Shown: piece by piece, positions 6,984 through 29,111 of the stretch
Position numbering within the stretch: the first letter of the stretch is position 1
Layout: each line of letters begins with the position of its first letter
IMG/VR virus record: IMGVR_UViG_3300021437_000066
Span: 1-29,948 of that record
Direction: 5' to 3' (one strand)
DNA: 29,948 nucleotides
DNA from: a virus
Program-made: the position numbers and the translations under genes
Notes under the pieces: generated by a model
Told to the model about the DNA's origin: nothing
Databases searched by the model: none
Seen by the model: only the letters and a program-made list of their open reading frames with translations

Positions 6984-7708
6984 TGTTTGAAACTCCATTC
7001 TATCATCGTAATATCCGTAACCTGGTAGTGGGATTCGGTACTCTGTTCAGTCATATTAAGATTGTCCGAGACGATGAGGCGACGCCTGGCAATACCCAGA
7101 TTATCTCTGTGCCGATTGCCTATGGCCCAAAAGAGAAGTGGAATGTGAGGGTTGATCAAGACCCAAATCTTGAGAACCACACGTATGTCAATATCCCCCG
7201 TATGGGGTTTGAGATCACCGGGTACGCCTACGACGCTGCTCGGGCAATGAACCGTAACAACAAAATCAACGGTTGCACAACGGCTGGGGTTCCAAACGGT
7301 CGAGTTAACGCGCCAGTTCCATATAACGTAGAGTTATCATTATATTTGTTGACCAAGGGTACTGAAGATAGTCTGTCTGTGATTGAACAGATACTGCCTT
7401 TGTTCGCTCCAGAGTACACCTTATCCACAGTATCGCCTGTTGGGGTTCCAATTGATATTCCAATTATCCTGAACGGGGTGTCGGTGTCTGACGACTTTGA
7501 GGGTGACTTTCAGACGCGCCGATTGGTCACACACACGCTGAGCTTTACCGCCAAATTGAATCTGTTTGGGGCCGTTGATACCTCAAGCGGCGTTATTCTG
7601 AATACGACGGTTCCGGTCACCTCTGCTCCGGCTGCAACAGATACGCACTTGGCGACTGGAGTATTGCCAAGTAAGGCAATCGTTGTGGATACTTGGAAAT
7701 TAAATTGA
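6983..7708 (+). CDS. 15: Tail sheath stabiliser/terminator gp15
   Basis: A 241-residue protein with the gp15 hallmark start 'FETPFYHRNIRNLVVGFGTL' and then 'IVPIAYG'-like ('IISVPIAYGPKEKW'). The central 'IPRMGFEITGYAYDAARAMN' and 'VPYNVELSLYLLTKGTEDSL' follow, with 'GVSVSDDFEGDFQTRRLVTH' towards the C terminus. In T4, gp15 forms a hexamer capping the finished tail tube and sheath and joins the tail to the neck. The stop codon overlaps the proposed TTG start of the terminase gene, so no room remains for a small terminase gene here, unlike T4 (15-16-17). Confidence 0.9.
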   Translation: MFETPFYHRNIRNLVVGFGTLFSHIKIVRDDEATPGNTQIISVPIAYGPKEKWNVRVDQDPNLENHTYVNIPRMGFEITGYAYDAARAMNRNNKINGCTTAGVPNGRVNAPVPYNVELSLYLLTKGTEDSLSVIEQILPLFAPEYTLSTVSPVGVPIDIPIILNGVSVSDDFEGDFQTRRLVTHTLSFTAKLNLFGAVDTSSGVILNTTVPVTSAPAATDTHLATGVLPSKAIVVDTWKLN

Positions 7709-9807
7709 ATCTGACTGGTTATCTTGGTAACACGCTACTCAAGCCTATCGGCGCGCCGCTAGACTTCACCGAGCATGAGCTTGATGAATATATCAAGTGC
7801 AAGAAAGACCCGATCTACTTTATCCGAACCTACTGTAAAATCGTCACATCAGACTACGGCCTGATCGTATTCCCACTGTTCGATTATCAGATACGCTTCA
7901 TCATGGCTATGCATGAAAGGCGCATGGTCATCGGGATGTTCGGCCGACAGATGGGCAAAACGACCTGTGCAGCGGCTTACTTGTTGTGGTTCTCGATTTT
8001 CAACGATGCAAAAACGTCGGCAATTCTGGCTAACAAAGCCGCAGCTGCTCGTGAGGTGATGGCGCGTTACCAGATGATGTTTGAGTATTTGCCAAAGTTC
8101 CTTCAGCAAGGGGTTAAGACCTGGAACAAGGGCGATATTGAACTCGAGAACGGTTCCAAGGTATTCACAGGAGCGACCTCAGCGTCTGGTATTCGAGGGA
8201 AAACCTGCGTTTCTGGATCAACCAAGGTATGTATCAGGGACAAACAAGGCTTCATCTTCTACGCGGCGATTGACGAATTGTTATCTGGCCTTGGACGCGA
8301 GCATCTTGTTGGGACCAACTCTGAGGTTGTTGAGCAATTTGGTCCCGAGAAGGTTCGGTTGATCGTTGAAGAATACCCAACAGAATATCCGAAAATCAAA
8401 ATCGGTCAATCGTTATCTGAGTTTGAAATTCTATCTGAAGACAAATTCCGAAGGGTTGAGGAATTGTTGTTCCAGGGCGTTCGTTACACATTGGTTGTTC
8501 GGTTCGCGAGCGGTAACTCTATTACTGTGACCCCAGACCACAAATTGTTGACGTCTATTGGATGGAAAACTGCGGCCAACCTGTCAGTTGGCGATAAATT
8601 GAGCGACGAAATGATTTCGTCCGTTGATTGCGGCAATTCGATTCCAGTGTATGATTTCTTCAACGTCGACGAGAAGCACTCATACTATACCAACGGAGTG
8701 ATATCCCACAACTGTCAATTGTTGTATATTGACGAGGCGGCGATCATTCCAAATTCGGTTGCCGATCAGTTCTTTACTTCAACGTACCCAACGATTTCAT
8801 CAGGTAAAACTGCAAAAATCGTAATGACCTCAACCCCTCTTGGTTACAACCACTTCTGGAAGTTCTGGAACGAGGCTGAGACTGGGATGAATGACTTTTA
8901 CCCGGTAAGGGTTCGATGGCAAGAACACCCAACCAGAGACGACGAGTGGGCCGCAGGTCAGTTACGGCTACTGGGCGAGTTGAAATACAATCAGGAGGTG
9001 GAGTGCGCGTTTCTGGGCTCATCCTCGACCCTGATCAATGCAAACGCGATGGGTAAAATGTCAGCGATTGCTCCGTTGCTGAAGCGGGAAGACGGGCTGG
9101 ACGTTTACGAGTTCCCAATCAAGGGCGACGCGCCCCATTCCTACGTCATATCTGTTGACACCTCAAAGGGCGTTGGGGGCGACTACTCGGTATTCAACTG
9201 TATCGATGTGACGACTTTCCCCTACAAGGTTGTTGCCAAATACCGTAACAACAAGATTGCTCCATTGTTATTCCCCAGTGTGATTTATCAGATAGCCAAC
9301 GACTATAACGAGGCGCTGGTGATATTTGAAACCAATTGCTCTGAGCAGGTTCCTCATATCGTGTATTATGAGTTGGAATATACCAATATCGTGTTTGTCA
9401 GTCAAACCCCCAAGGGTCAGGTGGTGTCAGGGGGCTTTGGTAATAACGTTCGCCTTGGGGTGAATATGGACAAACGAATCAAGCGGATTGGGTGCTCAAA
9501 CTTCAAGAGTATGGTTGAAGAGGGTAAACTGATCACATTTGATGCTGACACAATCGCTGAGATTTCGACCTTCATCCAGGTGAGGGATACGTATGCGGCT
9601 GATGACGGGTATCATGACGATTTGGTGATGTCATTGGTCATATTCGCTTGGTTGACGACCCAGCCGTACTTTGTTGAGATGACCAACCTAAATATGAGGC
9701 AAGCCCTGTATCAGAGTCGAATTGATGCAATTGAATCAGAGCACATCCCGATTGGTAATTTTACAAACGGGGTTGATTCGCCAGAACCAGAGACTTTCAA
9801 TTTCTGA
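7705..9807 (+). CDS. 17: Terminase large subunit gp17, interrupted by a mini-intein
   Basis: No ATG lies near the start. I chose TTG 7705, which overlaps the gp15 stop and has GGA seven bases upstream; TTG 7693 is an alternative. The precursor has about 700 residues, or about 531 once the 169-residue intein is removed. The ATPase Walker A-like motif is 'GRQMGKTT' (about 80-87) and Walker B is 'LLYIDEAAI' just after the intein. 'MTSTPLGYNHFW' is the coupling motif. The C-terminal RNase H-like nuclease has acidic residues in 'VISVDTSKG', 'VIFETNCSE' and 'YHDDLVMSLVIFAWL' (about D485, E542 and D638 of the precursor). It translocates DNA into proheads and cuts concatemers. The intein sits directly before Walker B, so splicing must occur for activity. 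Confidence 0.95.
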   Translation: MNLTGYLGNTLLKPIGAPLDFTEHELDEYIKCKKDPIYFIRTYCKIVTSDYGLIVFPLFDYQIRFIMAMHERRMVIGMFGRQMGKTTCAAAYLLWFSIFNDAKTSAILANKAAAAREVMARYQMMFEYLPKFLQQGVKTWNKGDIELENGSKVFTGATSASGIRGKTCVSGSTKVCIRDKQGFIFYAAIDELLSGLGREHLVGTNSEVVEQFGPEKVRLIVEEYPTEYPKIKIGQSLSEFEILSEDKFRRVEELLFQGVRYTLVVRFASGNSITVTPDHKLLTSIGWKTAANLSVGDKLSDEMISSVDCGNSIPVYDFFNVDEKHSYYTNGVISHNCQLLYIDEAAIIPNSVADQFFTSTYPTISSGKTAKIVMTSTPLGYNHFWKFWNEAETGMNDFYPVRVRWQEHPTRDDEWAAGQLRLLGELKYNQEVECAFLGSSSTLINANAMGKMSAIAPLLKREDGLDVYEFPIKGDAPHSYVISVDTSKGVGGDYSVFNCIDVTTFPYKVVAKYRNNKIAPLLFPSVIYQIANDYNEALVIFETNCSEQVPHIVYYELEYTNIVFVSQTPKGQVVSGGFGNNVRLGVNMDKRIKRIGCSNFKSMVEEGKLITFDADTIAEISTFIQVRDTYAADDGYHDDLVMSLVIFAWLTTQPYFVEMTNLNMRQALYQSRIDAIESEHIPIGNFTNGVDSPEPETFNF
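8206..8712 (+). other. Mini-intein (169 aa) inside the terminase
   Basis: The insert runs from Cys1 ('CVSGSTKVCI', block A) to the terminal His-Asn of 'YYTNGVISHN' (block G), with Cys as the +1 extein residue. Block B is visible as 'SITVTPDHKLLT' with its TxxH, followed by 'AANLSVGDKL'. Block F is 'IPVYDFFNVDEKHSYYTNG'. No LAGLIDADG or HNH motif lies between blocks B and F (about 20 residues), so the homing endonuclease has been lost or never existed. All splicing residues (Cys1, TxxH, HN, Cys+1) are intact. The rejoined flanks, 'SGIRGKT' and 'CQLLYIDE', read as an uninterrupted T4 gp17 sequence. Confidence 0.95.
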
Positions 9808-18040: not shown

Positions 18041-18072
18041 GAAAACTCTGGCTTCGGTCAGAGTTTTCTTTT
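18041..18072 (+). terminator. Rho-independent terminator after gene 23 (copy 1)
   Basis: A 10-bp perfect stem GAAAACTCTG/CAGAGTTTTC, extended by G-U and C-G to a UUCG tetraloop and followed by a U-rich tract. It ends the highly expressed capsid transcript. A 28-base core of this terminator is repeated exactly at 19322-19349, after the HNH gene. Confidence 0.92.
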
Positions 18073-18075
18073 GTG

Positions 18076-18082
18076 ATAAATA
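18076..18082 (+). promoter_or_regulatory. T4-type late promoter box before the HNH gene
   Basis: ATAAATA directly after the terminator U-tract and 32 bases before the ATG at 18115. Seven of the eight bases of the T4 late consensus TATAAATA are matched (G in place of the first T). It would give the homing gene its own late transcript despite the upstream terminator. Confidence 0.5.
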
Positions 18083-18114
18083 AACAGGAACCCTTCTTAA
18101 TTACATATTACGCC

Positions 18115-19323
18115 ATGAATATCTATTCTATACTTGAATCCAAACCTCATAACCCACATTATCTGAAACGATACTGGAAGTTTATCAACGCTTGCACGCA
18201 CAAACAAGACGAATACGTCGAAGACCATCATATATGCCCTAAGGCAAAAGATCTATTTCCAGAGCACGAACACGCTGAATGGAATTCAAAATTTCTAACA
18301 GCACGTCAACATATAACCGCTCACGTCATGTTATGGAAAGCGTATGGAGGGAGTCAGTCATCGGCCCTCAACTGTATGCTTGGTAATTTTAATTCTTCGA
18401 CTAACATTAAGCTTAGTGGTAGAATCGTTCCTCCCGCAATAAAGATTCGTTATTTGGCGAAAACGAGGGAAGGCGCCATCGAACATAGAGGCAAACATAT
18501 TAGGGGCAAATCGAACTACAAAGATAAAGATGGAAATCGGTTCTTCCTGAAAACGGACGACCCTATGATCAAAGAACTGGGGTTAGTTGGCAATAACACT
18601 GGGATGACGCATACCCAAGAGACTCGCGATAAGTTATCTGGTCCAAAGACGACTCGGTTATATTATGGTTGGCCTGAGATCAAGGTAATTCATCATGACG
18701 ACCCAGAGCACGATGAGAAGGTTGATGCGTTGATGCGGCTTGGGTGGACGATTGATCGGACACAGTACTCATACGATGAAGAGAAGAAGCATATTCAGAG
18801 GGGGAAGGATCATCAGAAGAAGCAGACTTCGGCTGCCTTGACCGGAACCATCACGTACTATTATCCAAACGGGATGTATTATGGGAGGATTCCTCATGAG
18901 TCTCCCATCATCAAAGAACTGGGCCTTGTTCACCTCAGATCAGATAAACAGAACGCGCAGGCGCGAGAGAGGGCATTGTTGAACGCAGCGAATCCAGAAT
19001 CTCAACGGAAGAAGAGCAAAACAATCTCTCAGCTAAGGTGGTTCTACGACCCGATAACTCAGGAAAAGAAGCGGTTGCTTGAGTGTCCAGAGGGGTGGTT
19101 GGAGGGGCGCGGCAACACAACGGTTTGTGGTGGGTCGACGACCTGGAACGACGGGGTGAAGAATTATCGGTTGATGCCAGGGGTTGAGCCAGATCCAAGT
19201 TGGGTTCGCGGAATGGCGCCTCAGAAGCGGCGTCTCTTTAATTATACAAACGGAGTTGATTGGATTCAACGTTATTCAAATGAGCCGATCCCAGAAGGTT
19301 ATCGCATAGGGAAACCGAAATAA
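18115..19323 (+). CDS. HNH-type homing endonuclease (free-standing)
   Basis: I prefer the ATG at 18115 (402 residues); a GTG at 18073 is in frame but lies in the terminator tail. Neither has a Shine-Dalgarno sequence. The nuclease domain is N-terminal: 'EYVEDHHICPKAKDLFPEH' (about 38-56) followed by 'WNSKFLTARQHITAHVMLWK' has the HHI...N...H arrangement of phage HNH endonucleases. The rest is built of DNA-binding-type repeats: two 'Y..G......D.P.IKELGLV' blocks, then W-D-G-rich segments ('WFYDPITQEKKRLLECPEGW', 'TTWNDGVKNYRLMPGVEPDP', 'RGMAPQKRRLFNYTNGVDWI'). It is expected to cut an endonuclease-free allele near gene 23 and spread by repair. Terminator copies flank it. Confidence 0.82.
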   Translation: MNIYSILESKPHNPHYLKRYWKFINACTHKQDEYVEDHHICPKAKDLFPEHEHAEWNSKFLTARQHITAHVMLWKAYGGSQSSALNCMLGNFNSSTNIKLSGRIVPPAIKIRYLAKTREGAIEHRGKHIRGKSNYKDKDGNRFFLKTDDPMIKELGLVGNNTGMTHTQETRDKLSGPKTTRLYYGWPEIKVIHHDDPEHDEKVDALMRLGWTIDRTQYSYDEEKKHIQRGKDHQKKQTSAALTGTITYYYPNGMYYGRIPHESPIIKELGLVHLRSDKQNAQARERALLNAANPESQRKKSKTISQLRWFYDPITQEKKRLLECPEGWLEGRGNTTVCGGSTTWNDGVKNYRLMPGVEPDPSWVRGMAPQKRRLFNYTNGVDWIQRYSNEPIPEGYRIGKPK

Positions 19324-19349
19324 CTCTGGCTTCGGTCAGAGTTTTCTTT
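19322..19349 (+). terminator. Terminator after the HNH gene (copy 2 of the gene 23 terminator)
   Basis: AACTCTGGC-TTCG-GTCAGAGTT with a following TTCTTT. It overlaps the HNH stop codon and is identical over 28 bases to the gene 23 terminator (18044-18071). The HNH cassette is therefore bounded by a direct repeat that is itself a terminator. Confidence 0.9.
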
Positions 19350-19350
19350 C

Positions 19351-19378
19351 AATCCCGGCTTTGGTCGGGATTTCTTTT
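19351..19378 (+). terminator. Second terminator hairpin downstream of the HNH gene
   Basis: AATCCCG/CGGGATT 7-bp stem, extended by G-U and C-G around TTTG and followed by TTCTTTT. It is immediately after copy 2 and similar in design but different in stem sequence. Tandem terminators insulate the next gene. Confidence 0.85.
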
Positions 19379-20020: not shown

Positions 20021-21247
20021 ATGCAACTAAAATCATACAAGTACAGAATCTACCCAACCAAGACTCAAGAAAAATATCTTTCTGAAGTCTTTGGTTCTGT
20101 GCGTTTTGTGTGGAACCAATTGGTTGCAAATTTCAACTCATTCTCAAAAGATGGGCCAAATAGACCTATGAGTGAGAAAATCTTAAAAGATAATCCTGAG
20201 TACAGTTGGCTGAACAATTCCATTTCATACGCGCTACAACAAAAGAGTAGGGATTTCGAAGAAACTAAGAAGCAATTCTTTTCTAAAACTCGCAAATCTA
20301 AACTGGGTAGGATGAAGTTTAAGAAACGCGGAGTTTCTACAGATTCATTCCGTATTCCGGGCCAGAAATTTTTAACTGGACAAGTAAATTTTGAGACGTC
20401 AAGAATCAAAATTCCAAAGATGACCCCGATTAAAATGTCTGTTGATAGGAAGTTTTCAGGAACCATAAGGAACGTAACGCTTTCCAAAAACAAAGCAAAT
20501 CAATATTTTGTTTCAATTTTAGTTGAAGAAGCTATAGAATTGAAACAAAATACTGGTCGCTCAATCGGTATTGACTTGGGACTTAAACATCTTTGTATCA
20601 TGAGTAATGGTATGAAAATTGAAAACCCAAGGTGGTTTAGAGAAAACCAATCTAAACTAAAACGAGCGCAGCAGCATTTGAGTCGCAAGGTGAAGGGCAG
20701 TTCAAGGTATGAGAGGCAGCGATTAAAAGTTGCAAAGTCATATCTCAAAGTAACCAATCAACGAAAATGGGTTTATCAAAACTTATCTACTTGGCTGGTT
20801 AATAACTACGATACAATATGTATGGAAGATTTGAATATCAAGGGAATGGTCAAGAATAGGAAATTGGCAAAGTCGATTTCTGATGCATCTTGGGCAACTC
20901 TGGTTTCTATGATTTCATACAAGGCTAACTGGTATGGTAAGTCTTTTCAGAAAATTGATCGTTGGTATCCGTCATCAAAGACGTGTTCTCATTGTGGTCA
21001 TAAAGAAACCGATATGGGCTTGCACATACGAGACTGGATTTGTGGTTCATGTGGAACGACTCATGATAGAGACTTAAATGCGGCAGTAAACATTTTGAAT
21101 AAAGGTCTGGTTGATCTTTATGGATTCGCATCGGAAGAATTATCCGATTACAAACGTCGAGAGGAATTAAGTCCTTCGGTAGAAATACCAACGGCATCTT
21201 CGATGAAGCGTTTAGTCAGTTTTATAGATTTTTATGAAACGGCATAA
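20021..21247 (+). CDS. tnpB: TnpB RNA-guided nuclease (IS200/IS605-IS607 family)
   Basis: A full-length 408-residue TnpB. The N terminus 'YKYRIYPTKTQEKYLSEVFG' is the usual helical start. The RuvC-like triad is intact: D185 in 'SIGIDLGLKHL', E269 in 'TICMEDLNIKGM' and D351 in 'THDRDLNAAVNIL'. The zinc finger is CSHCG...CGSCG (C322, C325, C341, C344). TnpB cuts DNA next to a transposon-adjacent motif, guided by an omega-RNA made from the gene's 3' end and the flanking DNA. No TnpA transposase is nearby, so movement would need another source or phage recombination. The gene divides a homing endonuclease gene. Its sequence is more A/T-rich than the neighbouring capsid genes, consistent with separate origin. 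Confidence 0.93.
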   Translation: MQLKSYKYRIYPTKTQEKYLSEVFGSVRFVWNQLVANFNSFSKDGPNRPMSEKILKDNPEYSWLNNSISYALQQKSRDFEETKKQFFSKTRKSKLGRMKFKKRGVSTDSFRIPGQKFLTGQVNFETSRIKIPKMTPIKMSVDRKFSGTIRNVTLSKNKANQYFVSILVEEAIELKQNTGRSIGIDLGLKHLCIMSNGMKIENPRWFRENQSKLKRAQQHLSRKVKGSSRYERQRLKVAKSYLKVTNQRKWVYQNLSTWLVNNYDTICMEDLNIKGMVKNRKLAKSISDASWATLVSMISYKANWYGKSFQKIDRWYPSSKTCSHCGHKETDMGLHIRDWICGSCGTTHDRDLNAAVNILNKGLVDLYGFASEELSDYKRREELSPSVEIPTASSMKRLVSFIDFYETA

Positions 21248-22023: not shown

Positions 22024-22563
22024 ATGATCTCCTTCAAAGACTACCTTCGCGAATCAACGAACGCTGGAAACTACGTTTCAATCAAGTGCTCTGACCTGGG
22101 AAGGTTCTTTGATGCGCTTCACGTTACTCCCCCAAAATCTGGAGAATCTCCTCCAGCAGGCGACTACCACTGTACCCTGATGTATTCAAAGGGAAGCTCA
22201 GTACCCCCAAACAGAATCCAGAAGTTCCTTGACGCAAACTTCAGCGCCCCTATTACTTGCAATATCGTTGGAATTGATTGTTTTGACTCGATTCCAAAAG
22301 ACGGTTCCCGCGATGCGGCAAAGTCATGCTTGGTTCTGAAACTTGATAACCCGACGCTTGGGATTATCCATAACTCGCTTGTCCCATTCGGGTTGAAGCA
22401 TTCATACGCTGAGTACAATCCTCATGTGACTCTACGCTATAACATGAGCGTGACTGAGGCTCATGTGTATCGGGACATGCTCAATGTGTCCCCTGAGTTG
22501 AGGGAGCTTACTCTGACCCTACGAACAATCAAATCTGAAACTGTCAACGAGGATTATGTATGA
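22024..22563 (+). CDS. 2H phosphoesterase, candidate anti-CBASS protein Acb1
   Basis: A 179-residue protein from the ATG at 22024 (a TTG one codon earlier is possible). The two H-x-T motifs of the 2H superfamily are clear: 'GDYHCTLMYSKG' (H49, T51) and 'EYNPHVTLRYN' (H134, T136). Family members act on 2',3'-cyclic or 2'-5'-linked RNA, or, as in T4 Acb1 (gene 57B), cleave cyclic oligonucleotide signals of CBASS immunity. Resemblance to the Acb1 pattern includes the opening 'SFKDYL', the first-motif wording 'HCTLMYS' and the 'GLKHSYAEYNPHVTL' approach to the second. Acb1 is my favoured reading; a tRNA/RNA 2H enzyme is the alternative. It overlaps the next gene by ATGA. An AGGAGG lies 22 bases upstream, too far for normal use. 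Confidence 0.65.
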   Translation: MISFKDYLRESTNAGNYVSIKCSDLGRFFDALHVTPPKSGESPPAGDYHCTLMYSKGSSVPPNRIQKFLDANFSAPITCNIVGIDCFDSIPKDGSRDAAKSCLVLKLDNPTLGIIHNSLVPFGLKHSYAEYNPHVTLRYNMSVTEAHVYRDMLNVSPELRELTLTLRTIKSETVNEDYV

Positions 22564-23078
22564 CTTGTACAACCAATATCGACTTATTGACTCCAAACGG
22601 GTTTAAGTTCTCAATTCAAAAGTACCCTGAGTTAGACTATTTCATCCAGGGCGTACAGTTACCTGCCATTGGTCTGGGCGAGGCAGTTCAGGTATCCAGT
22701 GTTCATGATATGAAGATGCCCGGTGAGACGTTGACATTTGATGATCTGACCATTACCTTTATGGTTGATTCTCAGATGAAGAATTACCTTGCAATACAGG
22801 AGTGGATGTTTGGTCTGGGCTTTCCAGTTGGTCATGCAGCCTTTACCAGTTTCGTTAATGAAGCTCGTAATGCTCAATCATATACCACTATAAGTAAGTC
22901 TGTTAGTGACTGTTCATTGATGATACTTGGTACGAATAATCAAATCGTTAAACAGTTTAACTTTATTGATGCCTTTCCTACTTCATTAAGTGCTATTAAC
23001 GTTGGTTCAACTAATACCGACGTCAACTACGTTGAAGCTACCGTCGTTATGACTTACTCTTATTACTCGCCTGTATAG
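22560..23078 (+). CDS. Tail-tube-family protein (gp19/gp54-like paralogue)
   Basis: A 172-residue protein overlapping the 2H gene by ATGA. 'NGFKFSIQKYPELDYFIQGV' and 'QLPAIGLGEAVQVSSVHDMK' start it. 'MPGETLTFDDLTITFMVDSQ' and 'MKNYLAIQEWMFGLGFPV' follow, and 'NFIDAFPTSLSAINVGSTNT' closes it. The closing motif parallels gp19 at 11835-12356 ('FVDAFPTEVGAINLSWDDNN'). The tube fold is also used by T4 gp54, the tube initiator on the baseplate, so a tube-initiator or tail-completion role fits. Similar proteins occur near uvsY in other distant T4-like phages as I recall them. The exact T4 equivalent is uncertain. The stop codon runs directly into the first 81-bp repeat. Confidence 0.8.
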   Translation: MTCTTNIDLLTPNGFKFSIQKYPELDYFIQGVQLPAIGLGEAVQVSSVHDMKMPGETLTFDDLTITFMVDSQMKNYLAIQEWMFGLGFPVGHAAFTSFVNEARNAQSYTTISKSVSDCSLMILGTNNQIVKQFNFIDAFPTSLSAINVGSTNTDVNYVEATVVMTYSYYSPV

Positions 23079-23157
23079 TTACTCTAACTCATTGTTACCG
23101 AAGTAACTATAACTAGACCTACTTCAACCCTACAGAGTAATTATAACGTTTATTAAA
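23077..23157 (+). repeat. 81-bp perfect direct repeat, copy 1 (before uvsY)
   Basis: Identical over 81 bases to 25446-25526. It begins inside the stop codon of the upstream gene and ends 30 bases before uvsY. A further shared stretch, CAAAATAATAAT, follows after an eight- or nine-base divergent gap. It contains AGTTACT paired with AGTAACT (a 7-bp stem, 9 bp in this copy because of flanking bases) enclosing TAAC/GTTA. It also holds the near-duplicate 12-mers AGTAACTATAAC and AGTAATTATAAC. No protein-coding potential was seen. Confidence 0.97.
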
Positions 23158-23187
23158 CTGTACACAAAATAATAATCCAAATAAATT

Positions 23188-23619
23188 ATGACGCTTGATG
23201 AATTGAAACTGATGTGGGAAAAGGACGCCCCAATACCCGATGACTTGGGGGCAGCGGCACTTCAACAGCCGATGTTGCACTCAAAGTATATTGGGTTTGT
23301 TATTGACGCCAAGCTTCGGCTGACGAAAGCGCAGCATGATATTGCTGATCTGCGAGCAACCAAATCAAAGTATTTCCGAGGTGAGATGACTCGGGAAGAG
23401 TTGACTGATCGTGGGTGGCAGCAATGGCAATACAAAACCCTAAAGACTGATATTGAAGGGTTGATTGAGGCCGATTCAGATTATCAGAAACTGGTTGCTC
23501 GCGAGTCGTATCTCAAGTCAACCATATATTTCCTTGAGAGTGTGCTTGGGGCAATCAAAGACCGAGGTTGGGCGACCAAAGCGGGTATTGATTGGGCTAA
23601 GTTCAGGGCAGGCGTATGA
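23188..23619 (+). CDS. uvsY: Recombination mediator UvsY
   Basis: A 143-residue protein, near T4 UvsY (137). 'MTLDELKLMWEKDAPI' at the start, 'LHSKYIGFVIDAKLRLTKAQ', 'RATKSKYFRGEMTREELTDR', then 'LKTDIEGLIEADSDYQKL' and 'YLKSTIYFLESVLGAIKDRG' match the UvsY pattern of a helical oligomer. It loads the UvsX recombinase on gp32-coated single-stranded DNA. No Shine-Dalgarno sequence is present; an AAATA box ends four bases before the ATG. The gene overlaps uvsW by four bases (ATGA), so they form one unit. Confidence 0.92.
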   Translation: MTLDELKLMWEKDAPIPDDLGAAALQQPMLHSKYIGFVIDAKLRLTKAQHDIADLRATKSKYFRGEMTREELTDRGWQQWQYKTLKTDIEGLIEADSDYQKLVARESYLKSTIYFLESVLGAIKDRGWATKAGIDWAKFRAGV

Positions 23620-25112
23620 TTAAAATTGTACCTGGGAACGAGACATTCGTTCGGATTGTCTGCGATGATTGGGGAATCGAGGCTGAGCTGGCAGACTTCT
23701 TTTGTTTCTTTGCTCCAGGGTACAAGTACATGCAGAAGTTTAAAACTGGTATGTTTGATGGAAAGATACGGTTATTCAACAAACAGAGAAAGACCATATA
23801 CAAGGGGTTAGTTGATGAGATCGTCAAATGGGCAAAGAACCGCGATTATCCCATTGAAGTTGATATTACCCTGAAGAACTCAACCGACATTACCCCAGAA
23901 GAGGTGAGGCGGTTTGTTGATTCGCTTGATCTGCGCGGTAAGGGTCAACCGCTTCAGATTCGCGAGTATCAGTACGAGGCAATCCACCGAGCGATCAAAT
24001 ACAACAGACAGTTACTGTTGAGTCCAACTTCAAGTGGTAAGTCGTTGATTCTGTACGCATATTTCCGCTGGCAGTTTGCTCAGGGTCGTCAGTGTACGCT
24101 GATCGTTCCCTCGACTATGTTGGTTGAGCAGATGTTCAGTGACTTTGAAGATTACTCTAGCGCCAATGGGTTTGACGTGGAAGAATCGGTTGGGGTTCTG
24201 TATTCAGGCAAGGAGCGCGTATTTACAAAGCCCCTGATCATTAGTACCTGGCAGTCGTGTGCAGCGATGGTTAAGAACGACCGAAGAGCGTTTGATGCGC
24301 TGAGAAGCCGTACCGAGTGTATTGGGTTTGATGAGGCGCACACCTACAAGGCCGATGTGGTGAAGAGCGTTATGGAGGAGTTTGTTGCAGCCAAGTATCG
24401 TATTGGTACAACAGGTACTATTGACGATGCAAAGATCAATGCGCTGACTCTGACAGGTCTGATGGGCCCAATCTATAAGGTCATCACCACAAAACAGTTG
24501 ATGGACAACGGGCAGATTGTTCGGCTTGAAATCAACGCATTAGTTCTTCAGTATGCTGAGGAAATGCGAAAAGCGTACAAGGGAATGGACTATAAGGAAG
24601 AGGTGAAGTTCCTGGTTGGGTACGCGCCACGAAACCAGTTTATTGCCAAGCTGGCCTCATCGATCAAGGGTAATACGCTGATTCTGTTTAATTACGTGGC
24701 CCACGGTAAGATCATTTCAGATGAGATCGCCAAGGTATCTGATCGAACCGTACACTTTATCCATGGAGGGGTTGAGGTTGAGGAGCGGGAGCGTATCCGG
24801 ATATTGTTGGATACGTCTGAAGATGCAATTGTTGTTGCCACCTCAAGTTTATTCTCAACTGGAACCAATATCCCAAGCCTTGAGAATGTGATATTTGCAA
24901 TCCCAAGCAAATCGACTATCCGTATTCGTCAGTCGATTGGTCGAGGACTTCGACTCAAATCGGGTAAAACCCTATGTCGGCTGTTTGATATTGCCGATGA
25001 CCTTTCGTACAAATCGTACAAAAATACGACCCTAAATCATTTGGAAGAGCGTATTGCGATTTATGATAAGGAGTCGTTTGAATGGACAATGAAGAAGTTA
25101 CCGCTGAGATGA
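23616..25112 (+). CDS. uvsW: RNA-DNA/branched-DNA helicase UvsW
   Basis: A 498-residue superfamily 2 helicase, the length of T4 UvsW (about 502). The N-terminal 90 residues form the UvsW-specific domain ('FAPGYKYMQKFKTGMFDGKI'). Walker A is 'LLSPTSSGKSLI' (GKS 141-143), motif II is DEAH (239-242) in 'IGFDEAHTYK', motif III is TGT (266-268) and motif VI is 'RQSIGRGLRLKSGK' (about 438-451). UvsW unwinds R-loops and branch-migrates recombination junctions, helping the switch from origin- to recombination-dependent replication. It overlaps uvsY by ATGA and the following small gene by 31 bases. Confidence 0.95.
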   Translation: MIKIVPGNETFVRIVCDDWGIEAELADFFCFFAPGYKYMQKFKTGMFDGKIRLFNKQRKTIYKGLVDEIVKWAKNRDYPIEVDITLKNSTDITPEEVRRFVDSLDLRGKGQPLQIREYQYEAIHRAIKYNRQLLLSPTSSGKSLILYAYFRWQFAQGRQCTLIVPSTMLVEQMFSDFEDYSSANGFDVEESVGVLYSGKERVFTKPLIISTWQSCAAMVKNDRRAFDALRSRTECIGFDEAHTYKADVVKSVMEEFVAAKYRIGTTGTIDDAKINALTLTGLMGPIYKVITTKQLMDNGQIVRLEINALVLQYAEEMRKAYKGMDYKEEVKFLVGYAPRNQFIAKLASSIKGNTLILFNYVAHGKIISDEIAKVSDRTVHFIHGGVEVEERERIRILLDTSEDAIVVATSSLFSTGTNIPSLENVIFAIPSKSTIRIRQSIGRGLRLKSGKTLCRLFDIADDLSYKSYKNTTLNHLEERIAIYDKESFEWTMKKLPLR

Positions 25113-25444
25113 ACCAATCAAACGTTAATGAGGTTCTGTACGCGGTCAAGCTAACTTCTGGTGAAGAGCTTATGGTGGTATTGGTTGATATTACCGAAGA
25201 AGGAATTGAGATAGAAGACCCGATTCTCGTTTCTAAATACCCGGTAATGACTGGAAGCGGTATCAGCGAAGCCGTTGTTATGTCAGCTTGGATGGCTTTA
25301 TCGTCAACTTCAAACTTCTTTCTTGATAGTATGAATGTTATGACTATTCAACCGCTTCACCCTGACTTGTATGATTCTTATCTCGAGAAGATAGGCTTCA
25401 AAGATAAACCCTTCTTTGTTGATACTTCGGTATCAATCCACTAG
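25082..25444 (+). CDS. Small conserved-type protein after uvsW (possible Sm-like fold)
   Basis: A 120-residue protein starting inside the end of uvsW. The AAGGAG eight bases before ATG 25082 supports that start over ATG 25109. The core 'LYAVKLTSGEELMVVLVDIT' and 'EGIEIEDPILVSKYP' resembles the Sm/LSm-like strand pattern (ligand-binding 'L.(S/T)GE.L' and then 'I.I.DP'). I have seen similar small phage proteins near recombination genes. The C-terminal half is less regular, with 'FLDSMNVMTIQPLHPDLYDS'. A nucleic-acid-binding role is plausible but not shown. Its stop codon is two bases before the second 81-bp repeat. Confidence 0.7.
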   Translation: MDNEEVTAEMNQSNVNEVLYAVKLTSGEELMVVLVDITEEGIEIEDPILVSKYPVMTGSGISEAVVMSAWMALSSTSNFFLDSMNVMTIQPLHPDLYDSYLEKIGFKDKPFFVDTSVSIH

Positions 25445-25445
25445 A

Positions 25446-25526
25446 AGTTACTCTAACTCATTGTTACCGAAGTAACTATAACTAGACCTACTTCAACCCT
25501 ACAGAGTAATTATAACGTTTATTAAA
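25446..25526 (+). repeat. 81-bp perfect direct repeat, copy 2 (before gene 55)
   Basis: Identical to 23077-23157 and again placed immediately after an upstream stop codon. Together the copies bracket uvsY, uvsW and the small gene. In this copy the downstream CAAAATAATAAT leads directly into a strong TTGACA promoter element, which copy 1 lacks. Confidence 0.97.
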
Positions 25527-25544
25527 TCTATTGCAAAATAATAA

Positions 25545-25574
25545 TTGACATTATTTTGATATTTTGATTATGAT
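25545..25574 (+). promoter_or_regulatory. Sigma70-type promoter for gene 55
   Basis: A perfect -35 TTGACA (25545-25550), an 18-bp spacer and a -10 TATGAT (25569-25574, five of six). The expected start is near 25581, only about eight bases before the gene 55 ATG, leaving a very short leader. It makes sense for the late sigma factor to be read by unmodified host polymerase before late transcription begins. Confidence 0.75.
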
Positions 25575-25588
25575 TTTAAAATTAGTGT

Positions 25589-26128
25589 ATGAACGCACTA
25601 ACTGAAAACAAACCCCGAGCCCACTATGTGGATAATGCAAAGTTTTACGAGGCGCTGGTCCAGTACCGAGCGGCTTGTGAGGCGCATGAGGGTTGGCCTG
25701 AAACGTATCCACAAGTCCCAAACTTTATTGGGGAAAGTATCGTGGCAATCGCAACCAACCTCGCGTACCGTCCTAACTTTAACGGGTACTCGTGGCGCGA
25801 TGAAATGATTGGCGATGCAATTGAGAATTGCCTTCGCTACGTCAAGTCATTTGATATTGACAACTACAAAAACCCTCACGCTTACTTTACCCAGTGCTGC
25901 TGGTATAAGTTCATCGAGCGAATCAAGCTCGAGAACAAACAATCAAAGATCAAGCGGTCGATGGTACGCTACGCAGGGTTTGATACCTTTGCTCTGCAGG
26001 CACATGATGAGACTGGGGAGTTCACAATCAATATGAGCGAGTATCTGGATGCGCTGGGTGAGGACGATACCCCTCTGCCAAAGCCCGTTGAGATTGTCCC
26101 AGGTCCACTTGAGGGGTTCTTTGAGTGA
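25589..26128 (+). CDS. 55: Late-transcription sigma factor gp55
   Basis: A 179-residue protein, close to T4 gp55 (185). 'NFNGYSWRDEMIGDAIENCL' followed by 'VKSFDIDNYKNPHAYFTQCC' is the gp55/sigma region 2-like core (T4 has [20 protein letters not shown] and KYKNPHAYITQACF). The C terminus 'PGPLEGFFE' corresponds to the sliding-clamp-binding tail of T4 gp55 (SLDFLYE). It recruits host RNA polymerase to TATAAATA boxes, with gp33 and the clamp as coactivators. No Shine-Dalgarno sequence is visible. It overlaps gene 47 by ATGA. Confidence 0.93.
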   Translation: MNALTENKPRAHYVDNAKFYEALVQYRAACEAHEGWPETYPQVPNFIGESIVAIATNLAYRPNFNGYSWRDEMIGDAIENCLRYVKSFDIDNYKNPHAYFTQCCWYKFIERIKLENKQSKIKRSMVRYAGFDTFALQAHDETGEFTINMSEYLDALGEDDTPLPKPVEIVPGPLEGFFE

Positions 26129-27171
26129 AGTTCGCAATTCTCGGGGATACACATTTGGGGGCCAGGTCGGCCTCCTCTCACTTTTCCAAACACTTTAACC
26201 GTTTCTTCACTGAGGTATTCTACCCGCACCTGATCAAGAACGGTATTCAAGAAGTTATCCAGTTGGGGGATTTCTTTGATGATCGAACCAAACTGAGCGT
26301 AAAGGCGTATAATGAGTGTAAGGCGGCTTGGTTACAGCCGCTGGCCACTAACGGTATCCATATGCATATCTTGGTTGGGAATCATGACTCCCTCCACAAG
26401 AACTCAATCAAGGTCAATACGCCTGAGCTGATCCTCCAACAGGAATTTCGCGATTCTGTGACAATTTACTCGCGCCCAGCGGTACTTGATCTGGGCGGCA
26501 CAACGATCTCGATGATCCCCTGGATATGTGACGATAACCGAGAAGCGGTATTCAAGTTCTTCCAGAATAACCGAACTGATCTGTGCTGCGGCCACTTTGA
26601 AATTGATGGGTTTGATATGCAGCGGGGCGTTCCCGGTCATGGGGGTCTACCTCGGGATATCTTTGACAAATTCGAGGCAACCTTCAGCGGTCACTATCAT
26701 ACCCAGTCGTACGATGAGCTTACCCGTATCCGGTATGTGGGAACTCCGTATGAGATAACCTTTGCTGACGCCAACGACCCTCGAGGATTTCATGTATTTG
26801 ATACCGAAACCCGTTCGGTCGAGTTTATTGCAAACCCGTTCACAATGTTTGAGCGCGTTGTGTATAATGAGGGTTGGTCAGGCGATGCCGGTTCAATGGT
26901 AGGGAAGATTGTGAAGTTGGTGGTTGAGAAGAAATCTGACCTGTACCAGTTTGATCGGTTTGTAGACAGTCTCAAGTTGGCAGGCACATACGAGCTACAG
27001 ATTATTGAGAACTTCGCAGACATTGCAAACGCTGAAATTGAGGGCGAGGTGAAACTCGAGGATTCTCAGGCTATAATTGAGAACTATATTGACGGGCTGA
27101 CGACCGCAGTGGACAAGCAGCGCCTCAAGGAATATGTTCAAGGCCTGTATCTGGAGGCGATTGCAAAATGA
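26125..27171 (+). CDS. 47: Recombination nuclease subunit gp47 (SbcD/Mre11-like)
   Basis: A 348-residue protein (T4 gp47 about 339). All Mre11-type metallophosphoesterase motifs are visible: 'ILGDTHLG' (D8, H10), 'LGDFFDDR' (D49), 'LVGNHDSL' (N86, H87), 'CCGHFEIDG' (H156) and 'SGHYHTQS' (H189, H191). With gp46 it resects DNA ends to expose single strands for UvsX. It overlaps both flanking genes by ATGA, indicating a 55-47-46 translational chain. Confidence 0.95.
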   Translation: MKFAILGDTHLGARSASSHFSKHFNRFFTEVFYPHLIKNGIQEVIQLGDFFDDRTKLSVKAYNECKAAWLQPLATNGIHMHILVGNHDSLHKNSIKVNTPELILQQEFRDSVTIYSRPAVLDLGGTTISMIPWICDDNREAVFKFFQNNRTDLCCGHFEIDGFDMQRGVPGHGGLPRDIFDKFEATFSGHYHTQSYDELTRIRYVGTPYEITFADANDPRGFHVFDTETRSVEFIANPFTMFERVVYNEGWSGDAGSMVGKIVKLVVEKKSDLYQFDRFVDSLKLAGTYELQIIENFADIANAEIEGEVKLEDSQAIIENYIDGLTTAVDKQRLKEYVQGLYLEAIAK

Positions 27172-28880
27172 TTCTGATCAAACAACTGAGGTTTCGAAAC
27201 TTCCTCTCATATGGGAATACTCAGACCACGTTCCAACTGAATAGGAGTCGCCGTACCCTGATCAAGGGGAAGAACGGCTCAGGTAAGTCGTCCATTGTGT
27301 TGGATACCCTGATGTATGCGCTGTACGATAAACCATACCGAGCAGTGAACAAGGCGCAAATGATCAACTCGATCAATAAGCGCGATATGACTGTGGAGGT
27401 GGACTTTTCAGTCGACGGGGTCAACTACTCGGTTCATCGGGGTATGAAGCCCTCGGTATTCGATATTTTCTGTGAGGGGCAACTGGTTGAACAGGACGCA
27501 GCCAAGCGGGATTATCAGGCGTTTTTGGAAACTCAAATCCTCAAGGTATCTGAGAAAACCTTTAAGCAGATTGCGGTGTTGGGGTCAGCCTCATACGTGC
27601 CGTTCATGCAACTTACTGCTGCGCAACGGAGGGAGTTGATCGAGTCGATTCTTGATATTGAAGTGTTCAGTCATATGAACGCGGTTCTGAAGGATAGGGT
27701 TGCTGCCACCAAAGAAGAAACCAAACGGGTGACCAATGAGGTGGCAATCAAGAAAAGCGAGGCGGTTGCTCAACAGAAATTGCTGGCGTATATGAAAACC
27801 AATACTGAGCAGAGGGTTGCTGAGTACGAGCAACAGAAGGTTGAGCTGAATGGGCAGTTACAGGCTCTGGTTGAATCTGAGGCTCCACTTCGACTTGAGT
27901 TGGATCAGCTACAGGCGACCAAGCTGGAATTTGACTCCAAGCGGTACGAGTCCCTCTGTCTTGAATTGAGTTCAGCTGAGCGAGAAGTTGCCAACATCAA
28001 CAAACGTCTAAAGTCGATTGGGTCAATTGATGAGTGCCCAACCTGCCTTCAGAAAGTAACCGCTGATCACGTTCACTCGGTTGGGGCTGAACTGAATATG
28101 TCAAAGGCCGTTCTACAAACTTCGATTGACGAGTACAAAGTACAGGTTTCTCAACAGAACGAGTTGAAGGATGCAGCGTATGCGCACCTTGAGGAAATCT
28201 CAACGTTGACTTCAAGGGTATCAAAGAACGCAACAGATCAGGCAACCTTGTTACGTCAGATCGGATCAATCGACGCCTCAATCAAGTCAGTACTGTCAAA
28301 CACGACCGACGTTAGCGCTGAGCAGGAACGGCTCAAAGAAATCGGCGCCGAGGCGTTGCGACTCATCGAGCGCCAGCGGGATTTGTCTGAAGAGAAGCAC
28401 CTACAGGATGTGGCAATTCAACTGCTCAAGGACAGTGGGATCAAAACTGCTATTGTGAGGGAATACCTGCCAGTACTGAATCAACTGATCAACAAGTATC
28501 TGGCTGCGTTTAACTTCTTTGTAGACTTTACCCTGGACGAGAACTTTGATGAGATTCTCAAGTCCCGAGGGCGCGATACGTTCTCGTACAGTAGTTTTTC
28601 AGAGGGCGAGAAGCGCAAAATTGATACCAGTATTCTGTTGGCATTTCGTCAGCTGGCAGCAATGAAGAACTCAGCCAAAACTAACGTGTTGATCTTTGAT
28701 GAGATTCTTGATGGCAACCTTGACCTGGCGAGCCGAGAGGCGTTTAATGAGATCGTTGGACAGATTGGCGATGCAAATGTGTTTGTGATTAGTCACGCTG
28801 ACGCGTCGACCGACCACTACGACGATGTGATTTTGGTTGAGAAGCGCGGAGACTTCAGCGAATACGATTTCCAAAACTAG
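27168..28880 (+). CDS. 46: Recombination ATPase subunit gp46 (SbcC/Rad50-like)
   Basis: A 570-residue protein (T4 gp46 is 560). Walker A is 'IKGKNGSGKSSI' (34-41). A coiled-coil region (about 165-420) holds the zinc-hook 'DECPTCLQKV' (C287, C290). The ABC signature is 'YSSFSEGEKRK' (about 471-481) and Walker B is 'NVLIFDEILDGNLD' (E509). It powers and holds together the gp46/47 end-resection complex needed for recombination-dependent replication. The first residues overlap gene 47 by ATGA. Confidence 0.96.
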   Translation: MILIKQLRFRNFLSYGNTQTTFQLNRSRRTLIKGKNGSGKSSIVLDTLMYALYDKPYRAVNKAQMINSINKRDMTVEVDFSVDGVNYSVHRGMKPSVFDIFCEGQLVEQDAAKRDYQAFLETQILKVSEKTFKQIAVLGSASYVPFMQLTAAQRRELIESILDIEVFSHMNAVLKDRVAATKEETKRVTNEVAIKKSEAVAQQKLLAYMKTNTEQRVAEYEQQKVELNGQLQALVESEAPLRLELDQLQATKLEFDSKRYESLCLELSSAEREVANINKRLKSIGSIDECPTCLQKVTADHVHSVGAELNMSKAVLQTSIDEYKVQVSQQNELKDAAYAHLEEISTLTSRVSKNATDQATLLRQIGSIDASIKSVLSNTTDVSAEQERLKEIGAEALRLIERQRDLSEEKHLQDVAIQLLKDSGIKTAIVREYLPVLNQLINKYLAAFNFFVDFTLDENFDEILKSRGRDTFSYSSFSEGEKRKIDTSILLAFRQLAAMKNSAKTNVLIFDEILDGNLDLASREAFNEIVGQIGDANVFVISHADASTDHYDDVILVEKRGDFSEYDFQN

Positions 28881-29018: not shown

Positions 29019-29060
29019 AAAACGGAGTTAATCTTGACGGATTTAACTCCGTTTTACTTT
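29019..29060 (+). terminator. Strong rho-independent terminator downstream of gene 46
   Basis: A perfect 13-bp stem AAAACGGAGTTAA/TTAACTCCGTTTT (29019-29031 and 29043-29055) with an 11-base loop and a T-rich tail. It closes the 55-47-46 transcript. The stem is A/T-flanked and symmetric, so it might also work in reverse. Confidence 0.92.
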
Positions 29061-29081
29061 TATTGATCCCTCCGTTATAAT
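29053..29081 (+). promoter_or_regulatory. Sigma70-like promoter for the small-gene cluster
   Basis: -10 TATAAT (29076-29081), spacer 17, -35 TTTACT (29053-29058, four of six). The -35 overlaps the terminator tail. It leads to the gene at 29112, whose CGGAGAAAATC-ATG supplies a good Shine-Dalgarno sequence. Confidence 0.6.
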
Positions 29082-29111
29082 TACCCTATCGTAACGTAAT
29101 CGGAGAAAATC

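Follow-up and report, generated by a model that had tools for sequence, protein, structure and literature searches.

Why would a phage keep the same stretch of intergenic DNA in two places, once before the recombination genes uvsY and uvsW and again before the late sigma factor gene 55? The question is raised by the window analyzed here, the complete 29,948-bp virus record IMGVR_UViG_3300021437_000066 of IMG/VR, whose source is a marine T4-like phage. Positions 23077–23157 and 25446–25526 are identical at 81/81 positions with an offset of 2369 bp; in 15 control sequences of equal length from a third-order Markov model, exact direct repeats reached at most 14–19 nt. Its predicted elements identify the repeat as the upstream half of a cassette with divergent promoters, and the best-conserved content of the cassette appears to be a promoter on the opposite strand, which had been missed in an earlier sequence-only reading of the window.

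The evidence comes mainly from the gap before gene 55 in relatives. We surveyed 46 non-redundant gene-55 gaps of T4-like phages (including Syn9, P-SSM4, S-SM1, S-RIM2, and S-SKS1), with the preceding gene's stop codon as the common reference point, for −35 and −10 hexamers with 16–18-nt spacing, scored out of 12, and took the expected counts from dinucleotide shuffles. An antisense promoter scoring at least 10 was present in 41 of the 46 gaps (3.1 expected), at least 11 in 32 (0.3 expected), and the perfect score in 17 (0.01 expected). The same gap of the SAR11 phage HTVC008M also holds a perfect site. A sense promoter for the 55-47-46 unit was found in 37 gaps (3.3 expected), and both promoters stood back to back in 33 (0.4 expected). 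Hexamers and spacing of a divergent sigma70-type promoter pair are conserved at this site beyond chance on both strands. The median distance between this stop codon and the minus-strand −10 is 29 nt; the −35 lies farther on, and the promoter is directed back into the preceding Sm-like/uvsW genes. Among same-strand gaps, the best antisense site is that of the 55 gap in Syn9 (42 gaps), P-SSM4 (51 gaps), and the close relative G002 (14 gaps), and none scoring at least 10.3 was found among the 32 same-strand gaps of another relative, G004. The two −35 elements are very close, and in some cyanophages interlocked (TTGACAAGTTTGTCAA, at L136:4175–4269 in Syn9 and L137:3721–3809 in P-SSM4), with each −35 placed within the spacer of the other promoter. 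The feature does not extend to all T4-like phages: a gap of this kind in front of 55 is missing from T4, Vibrio nt-1, and Stenotrophomonas Marzo. We regard a cassette with a conserved backward promoter sequence as very probable, and in most relatives this promoter looks like an apparently undescribed source of antisense RNA. Our literature search found no report of an antisense promoter before gene 55, although one may already be mapped in the Syn9 transcriptome, which lay outside the search, and no paper found on early transcripts antisense to phage late genes described this site.

The elements of the cassette in the window, followed by the neighboring genes, are as follows.

23077–23157, unstranded: repeat copy 1 (81 bp), in the tail tube–uvsY gap, with diverged homology on to ~23178
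25446–25526, unstranded: repeat copy 2 (81 bp), in the Sm-like–gene 55 gap
23140–23168, minus strand: predicted antisense promoter of copy 1, with the same −10 as copy 2 (23145–23140) and a weaker −35, TTTGTG (23168–23163)
25509–25537, minus strand: predicted antisense promoter of copy 2; −35 TTTGCA (25537–25532), 17-nt spacer, −10 TATAAT (25514–25509)
25545–25574, plus strand: predicted sense promoter of the 55-47-46 unit; TTGACA, 18-nt spacer, TATGAT
25535–25557, unstranded: dyad AAAATAAT-N7-ATTATTTT, between both −35 elements, read directly from the sequence
25446–25502, minus strand: predicted antisense RNA, initial ~57 nt, with a possible hairpin with a UUCG loop, ending at the left edge of the repeat
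22560–23078, plus strand: tail tube gene (late; phrog_45), on the target side of the copy 1 antisense promoter
23188–23619, plus strand: uvsY (phrog_231)
23616–25112, plus strand: uvsW helicase (phrog_16)
25082–25444, plus strand: Sm-like gene (phrog_471), directly 5′ of the cassette, whose backward promoter would read into it in antisense
25589–26128, plus strand: gene 55, late sigma factor (phrog_234)
26125–28880, plus strand: genes 47 and 46 (phrog_100 and phrog_77)

The antisense promoter of copy 2 scores 10/12, with a predicted start at ~25502–25500, and the sense promoter scores 11/12, with a predicted start for gene 55 at ~25581, ~79 bp from the antisense one. The antisense −10 falls inside the 81 bp, together with its start region and the ~57 nt that would open the antisense transcript, and the sense promoter falls outside; no sense promoter was found at copy 1, before uvsY. 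Immediately 3′ of the 81 bp, a 7-nt block differs between the copies (CTGTACA in one, TCTATTG in the other) and is followed by the 12-mer CAAAATAATAAT common to both. The AAATAAT...ATTATTT dyad has counterparts between the −35 regions of G002 and of G003/G004 and at the primase site of G004, and is a candidate site of a common regulator. The genes run in the order tail tube, uvsY, uvsW, Sm-like, 55, 47, 46. The names uvsY, uvsW, 55, 47, and 46 given by the sequence-only reading hold, with phrog matches for all of them, and an Sm-like gene is added between uvsW and 55; its product scored 24.5 bits against PF16243, under the curated cut-off of 29.4, and the Syn9 homologue scored 144.7 bits. That both copies begin at the stop codon of the upstream gene is approximate: the first base of copy 1 is the second base of the tail-tube stop codon (TAG, 23076–23078), but copy 2 starts 2 nt past that of the Sm-like gene (25442–25444).

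A blind scan of 2.9 million viral contigs with the 20-mer WATAATTACTCTGTAGGGTT, covering the antisense −10 and start region, gave 18 contigs, one of which was G001 (IMGVR_UViG_3300021437_000061, 34.7 kb). In all of the other 17, some of them near-duplicates and thus fewer than 17 independent cases, the 20-mer lies between gene 55 and uvsW and is directed at uvsW, with gp55 39–42% identical to that of the window. In 84,980 bacterial and archaeal genomes, the 20-mer matched a single contig, whose genes are arranged alike and which is presumably phage sequence within a metagenome-assembled genome. The cyanophage form of the pattern occurred in 64 viral contigs, 32 times at the 55 gap in the antisense orientation and 32 times at other sites, and the idea that the start-region motif is exclusive to the 55 gap was dropped. 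In the freshwater phage contigs L127, L129, L130, and L134, TTGACA-16-TATAATTACTCTGTAG forms a sense promoter directly 5′ of DNA primase. Because it is also found at other cyanophage sites and in the sense orientation before the freshwater-phage primase, the motif is, as far as its distribution indicates, the mark of a phage promoter class, of which the backward placement at gene 55 is conserved. The long promoter pattern also occurs twice in each of two cyanophage-like genomes of 174 and 155 kb (L238 with L247, and L223 with L248).

Further copies, which the sequence-only reading had proposed to look for, do exist. Scanning viral contigs with 27 nt of the repeat matched G001 as the sole other contig, where a third copy, identical to copy 2 over 103/103 nt (25446–25548 in the window), lies between an Rz-like spanin gene and DNA primase, with nrdA and nrdB next. 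The three copies head the units uvsY-uvsW, 55-47-46, and primase-nrdAB. The tetranucleotide correlation between the window and G001 is 0.967, comparable to that between halves of single genomes (0.948 and 0.971), and for the related phages G002 and G004 with the window it is 0.887; the window's own two halves correlate at just 0.82, one of them being rich in endonuclease and transposase genes. Since their profiles correlate like the halves of one genome, the window and G001 are probably pieces of one phage. A second intergenic stretch in common, 29052–29095 and L107:598–641 (93% over 44 nt), contains TTTACT-17-TATAATTA and is probably an early promoter of the same phage. Cultured phages gave no convincing match to the repeat copies.

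Comparison with close relatives of the same gene order (G002, with gp55 59% and uvsW 70% identical; G003/G004, with 55% and 60%) points to different ages of the copies. In these relatives the gap before uvsY is just 24–25 nt and has no repeat. The tail-tube stop codon of G002, where the window has the repeat, is overlaid by CATAAATA, which matches the late promoter NATAAATA of cyanophages (PMC2984593). The gap before gene 55 retains recognizable remnants, e.g., CTACAGAGTAATTATAGC in G002. Because relatives keep remnants at 55 and have no repeat at uvsY, the 55 site, where the tail tube-uvsY-uvsW-Sm unit meets the 55-47-46 unit, is, on this comparison, the old place of the cassette; the copy at uvsY was apparently gained in this lineage. 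The primase site may be old as well, since the spanin–primase junction of G004 carries a diverged cassette. Similarity within a genome is high (z 31 for window-55 versus G001-primase, and z 10 for G004-55 versus G004-primase), whereas the orthologous pairs between the window/G001 and G004 reach z 1.9 and 1.5. This better match within genomes than between orthologues, shown independently in two lineages, indicates that the copies within a genome undergo concerted evolution, by gene conversion or because one factor has to read all copies.

The sequence-only reading had taken the repeat for a shared control module linking the recombination and late sigma genes. Part of that proposal is supported, with promoter sequence in the repeat, three copies before replication, recombination, and sigma units, and concerted evolution; a leader RNA and a conserved uvsY–55 link are not. 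The link fails in the close relatives, which lack the repeat before uvsY and keep promoters at 55, in part the very pattern that the reading had named as telling against itself. Its suggestion that recombination between the copies could delete uvsY-uvsW is possible in principle.

We favor, as moderately probable, the explanation that the divergent cassette fires early in both directions and restrains the preceding unit by antisense transcription. Early in infection, the host-type RNA polymerase would start in both directions, and the forward transcription would give the 55-47-46 mRNA for gp55, gp47, and gp46. The backward transcription would enter the unit before the cassette at its 3′ end, as antisense RNA or as convergent transcription, and reach uvsW and the Sm-like gene at the 55 copy, and the tail tube and spanin genes at the other copies. 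This restraint would end once gp55-directed late transcription takes over. With so little room between the −35 elements, the two promoters would be expected to draw polymerase away from each other. An early restraint of uvsW would make sense in view of T4, where the gene is expressed late and its product clears the R-loops from which origin replication is primed. The backward promoter is probably active during infection; much more tentatively, it may restrain the preceding unit. Somewhat more doubtful is the wider proposal that, in marine T4-like phages, an early antisense promoter might hold back UvsW and the last part of the late unit until gp55 takes over, as a timer tied to the late sigma gene, and that the phage in question might have extended it to two further late/early junctions, with copies kept alike by a common factor or gene conversion.

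Several observations weigh against this explanation. The antisense −35 of the window is weak in both copies (TTTGCA in copy 2 and TTTGTG in copy 1), and, taken as a whole, its antisense site barely stands out from shuffled versions of the same gap (p 0.05). The cassette leaves the switching on of uvsY unexplained, since copy 1 lacks a sense promoter. In the survey, 5 of the 46 gaps have no antisense site by this measure, and G003/G004 retain the antisense −10 yet score below 10/12. No conserved terminator, open reading frame (ORF), or strong fold was found for the predicted antisense RNA.

Among the other explanations, the one that survives best, though we consider it rather unlikely, is a mobile cassette like the promoter-early stem-loops (PeSLs) of T4-like phages, in which the forward promoter is the useful part, backward transcription is a by-product, and copies are spread and homogenized by recombination. 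The dispersed and homogenized copies are in keeping with it, as is the layout of copies 2 and 3, where a stop codon is followed by a small stem-loop, a sense sigma70-type promoter, and the gene. On the other hand, the backward promoter is conserved at least as well as the forward one (41 versus 37 of 46), the uvsY copy retains the backward half without a forward promoter, and the stem-loop is not terminator-like.

Transcription-primed replication origins like T4 ori(uvsY), with backward transcription forming R-loops near uvsY, 55, and primase, are quite improbable. T4 has an origin before uvsY, and its UvsW unwinds origin R-loops; by this parallel, the position of one copy before uvsY with uvsW among the neighbors would fit, and several copies would suit several origins. 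The cumulative GC skew, however, has no inflection at the copies, the relatives have no element at uvsY, and no unwinding element was identified.

An element acting on the plus strand is very improbable, whether it served the preceding unit as a 3′-end RNA structure or terminator or the following unit as a late promoter (TATAACTA). It would account for the position just past stop codons and the small hairpins in relatives, and TATAACTA differs from TATAAATA by one letter; the conserved letters, however, fit promoter elements on the other strand. As a late promoter, the repeat offers just TATAACTA, with its one mismatch, and contains neither octamer, TATAAATA nor NATAAATA; TATAACTA was not seen in the relatives' gaps, and the candidate was rejected. 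A structured RNA was likewise rejected, since Rfam covariance models at the gathering threshold gave 0 matches in the window and folds are weak (z-score −1.7 for the plus-strand fold; −12.0 kcal/mol and z −1.6 for the antisense RNA hairpin at 25446–25502). Neither repeat copy has an intrinsic terminator; under a looser GC limit with a positive control, terminator-like sites appeared in 4 of the 46 relatives' gaps per strand. The leader RNA for uvsY or 55 envisaged by the sequence-only reading finds no Rfam family or terminator either, and the predicted start of 55 lies 3′ of the repeat. A search for an antisense ORF found nothing consistent across relatives. Equally improbable is a recent chance duplication, functionless gene-conversion tract, or assembly artefact, for which the perfect identity in non-coding DNA and the absence of copy 1 from relatives would speak, but the core persists before gene 55 in phages whose gp55 is about 40% identical, two lineages independently have alike copies within a genome, and an artefact, which the sequence-only reading had itself raised, is unlikely because the flanks of each of the three copies are unique to it, the right end of copy 1 differs from the others, the gene order is that of the relatives, and a third copy lies on another contig.

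Some further features of the window concern its endonuclease-rich region. The capsid and tail tube genes are separated by an insertion of endonuclease-like ORFs, among them one for a TnpB-like transposase (20021–21247, phrog_506). An HNH endonuclease ORF (18073–19323) is flanked by UUCG-loop hairpins of terminator-like form (18044–18071, 19322–19349, and 19351–19378), with identical 28-nt copies on both sides and a third copy at 68%. The terminase large-subunit ORF (7693–9807) has an apparent intein-like insert, as judged by eye from the translation.

The timing of late transcription in marine T4-like phages, which are without the middle-mode regulators of T4, is poorly known, and a backward promoter from the late sigma gene offers a concrete target for existing infection transcriptomes (Syn9, S-PM2, and P-HM2). 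The concerted evolution of the copies exemplifies regulatory cassettes copied and homogenized within a lytic phage genome.

As for known systems, bacterial bidirectional promoters have one pseudo-symmetrical core, whereas the cassette has two separate full promoters, with −35s adjacent or interlocked and starts ~79 bp apart in the window. What the two have in common is divergent starts at one locus that compete for polymerase (PMC12825309 and PMC10268837 for the bacterial promoters). The halovirus HF2 has promoter-active short intergenic repeats, counter-transcripts, and a complex bidirectional promoter region (PMC8707807), but is an archaeal virus with an unrelated promoter type and no link to a late sigma gene. 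The CfrI antisense RNA of the T4-like cyanophage S-PM2, which lies at psbA and a gene for a homing endonuclease (PMC2984593 and PMC12197685), resembles the predicted RNA in its position at a gene's 3′ side. The site described here differs in being at the uvsW/Sm-like–55 junction, in recurring across Kyanoviridae and a SAR11 phage, and in being predicted from sequence. PeSLs, like the cassette, combine a sigma70-type early promoter and a stem-loop in a small intergenic unit with several copies per T4-like genome; they were reportedly described by Arbiol in 2010 and Comeau in 2014 and are mentioned in PMC4503421. Of these PeSL features, the copies at 55 and primase have a sense promoter and foldable 5′ sequence, although the folds are weak, and the copy at uvsY has no sense promoter. 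The cassette departs from PeSLs in its conserved backward promoter, in a stem-loop that is not terminator-like, as a PeSL terminator would be, and in its location, where core replication and recombination units meet, in contrast to the hyperplastic regions that hold PeSLs. With these differences, PeSLs are the nearest known kind.

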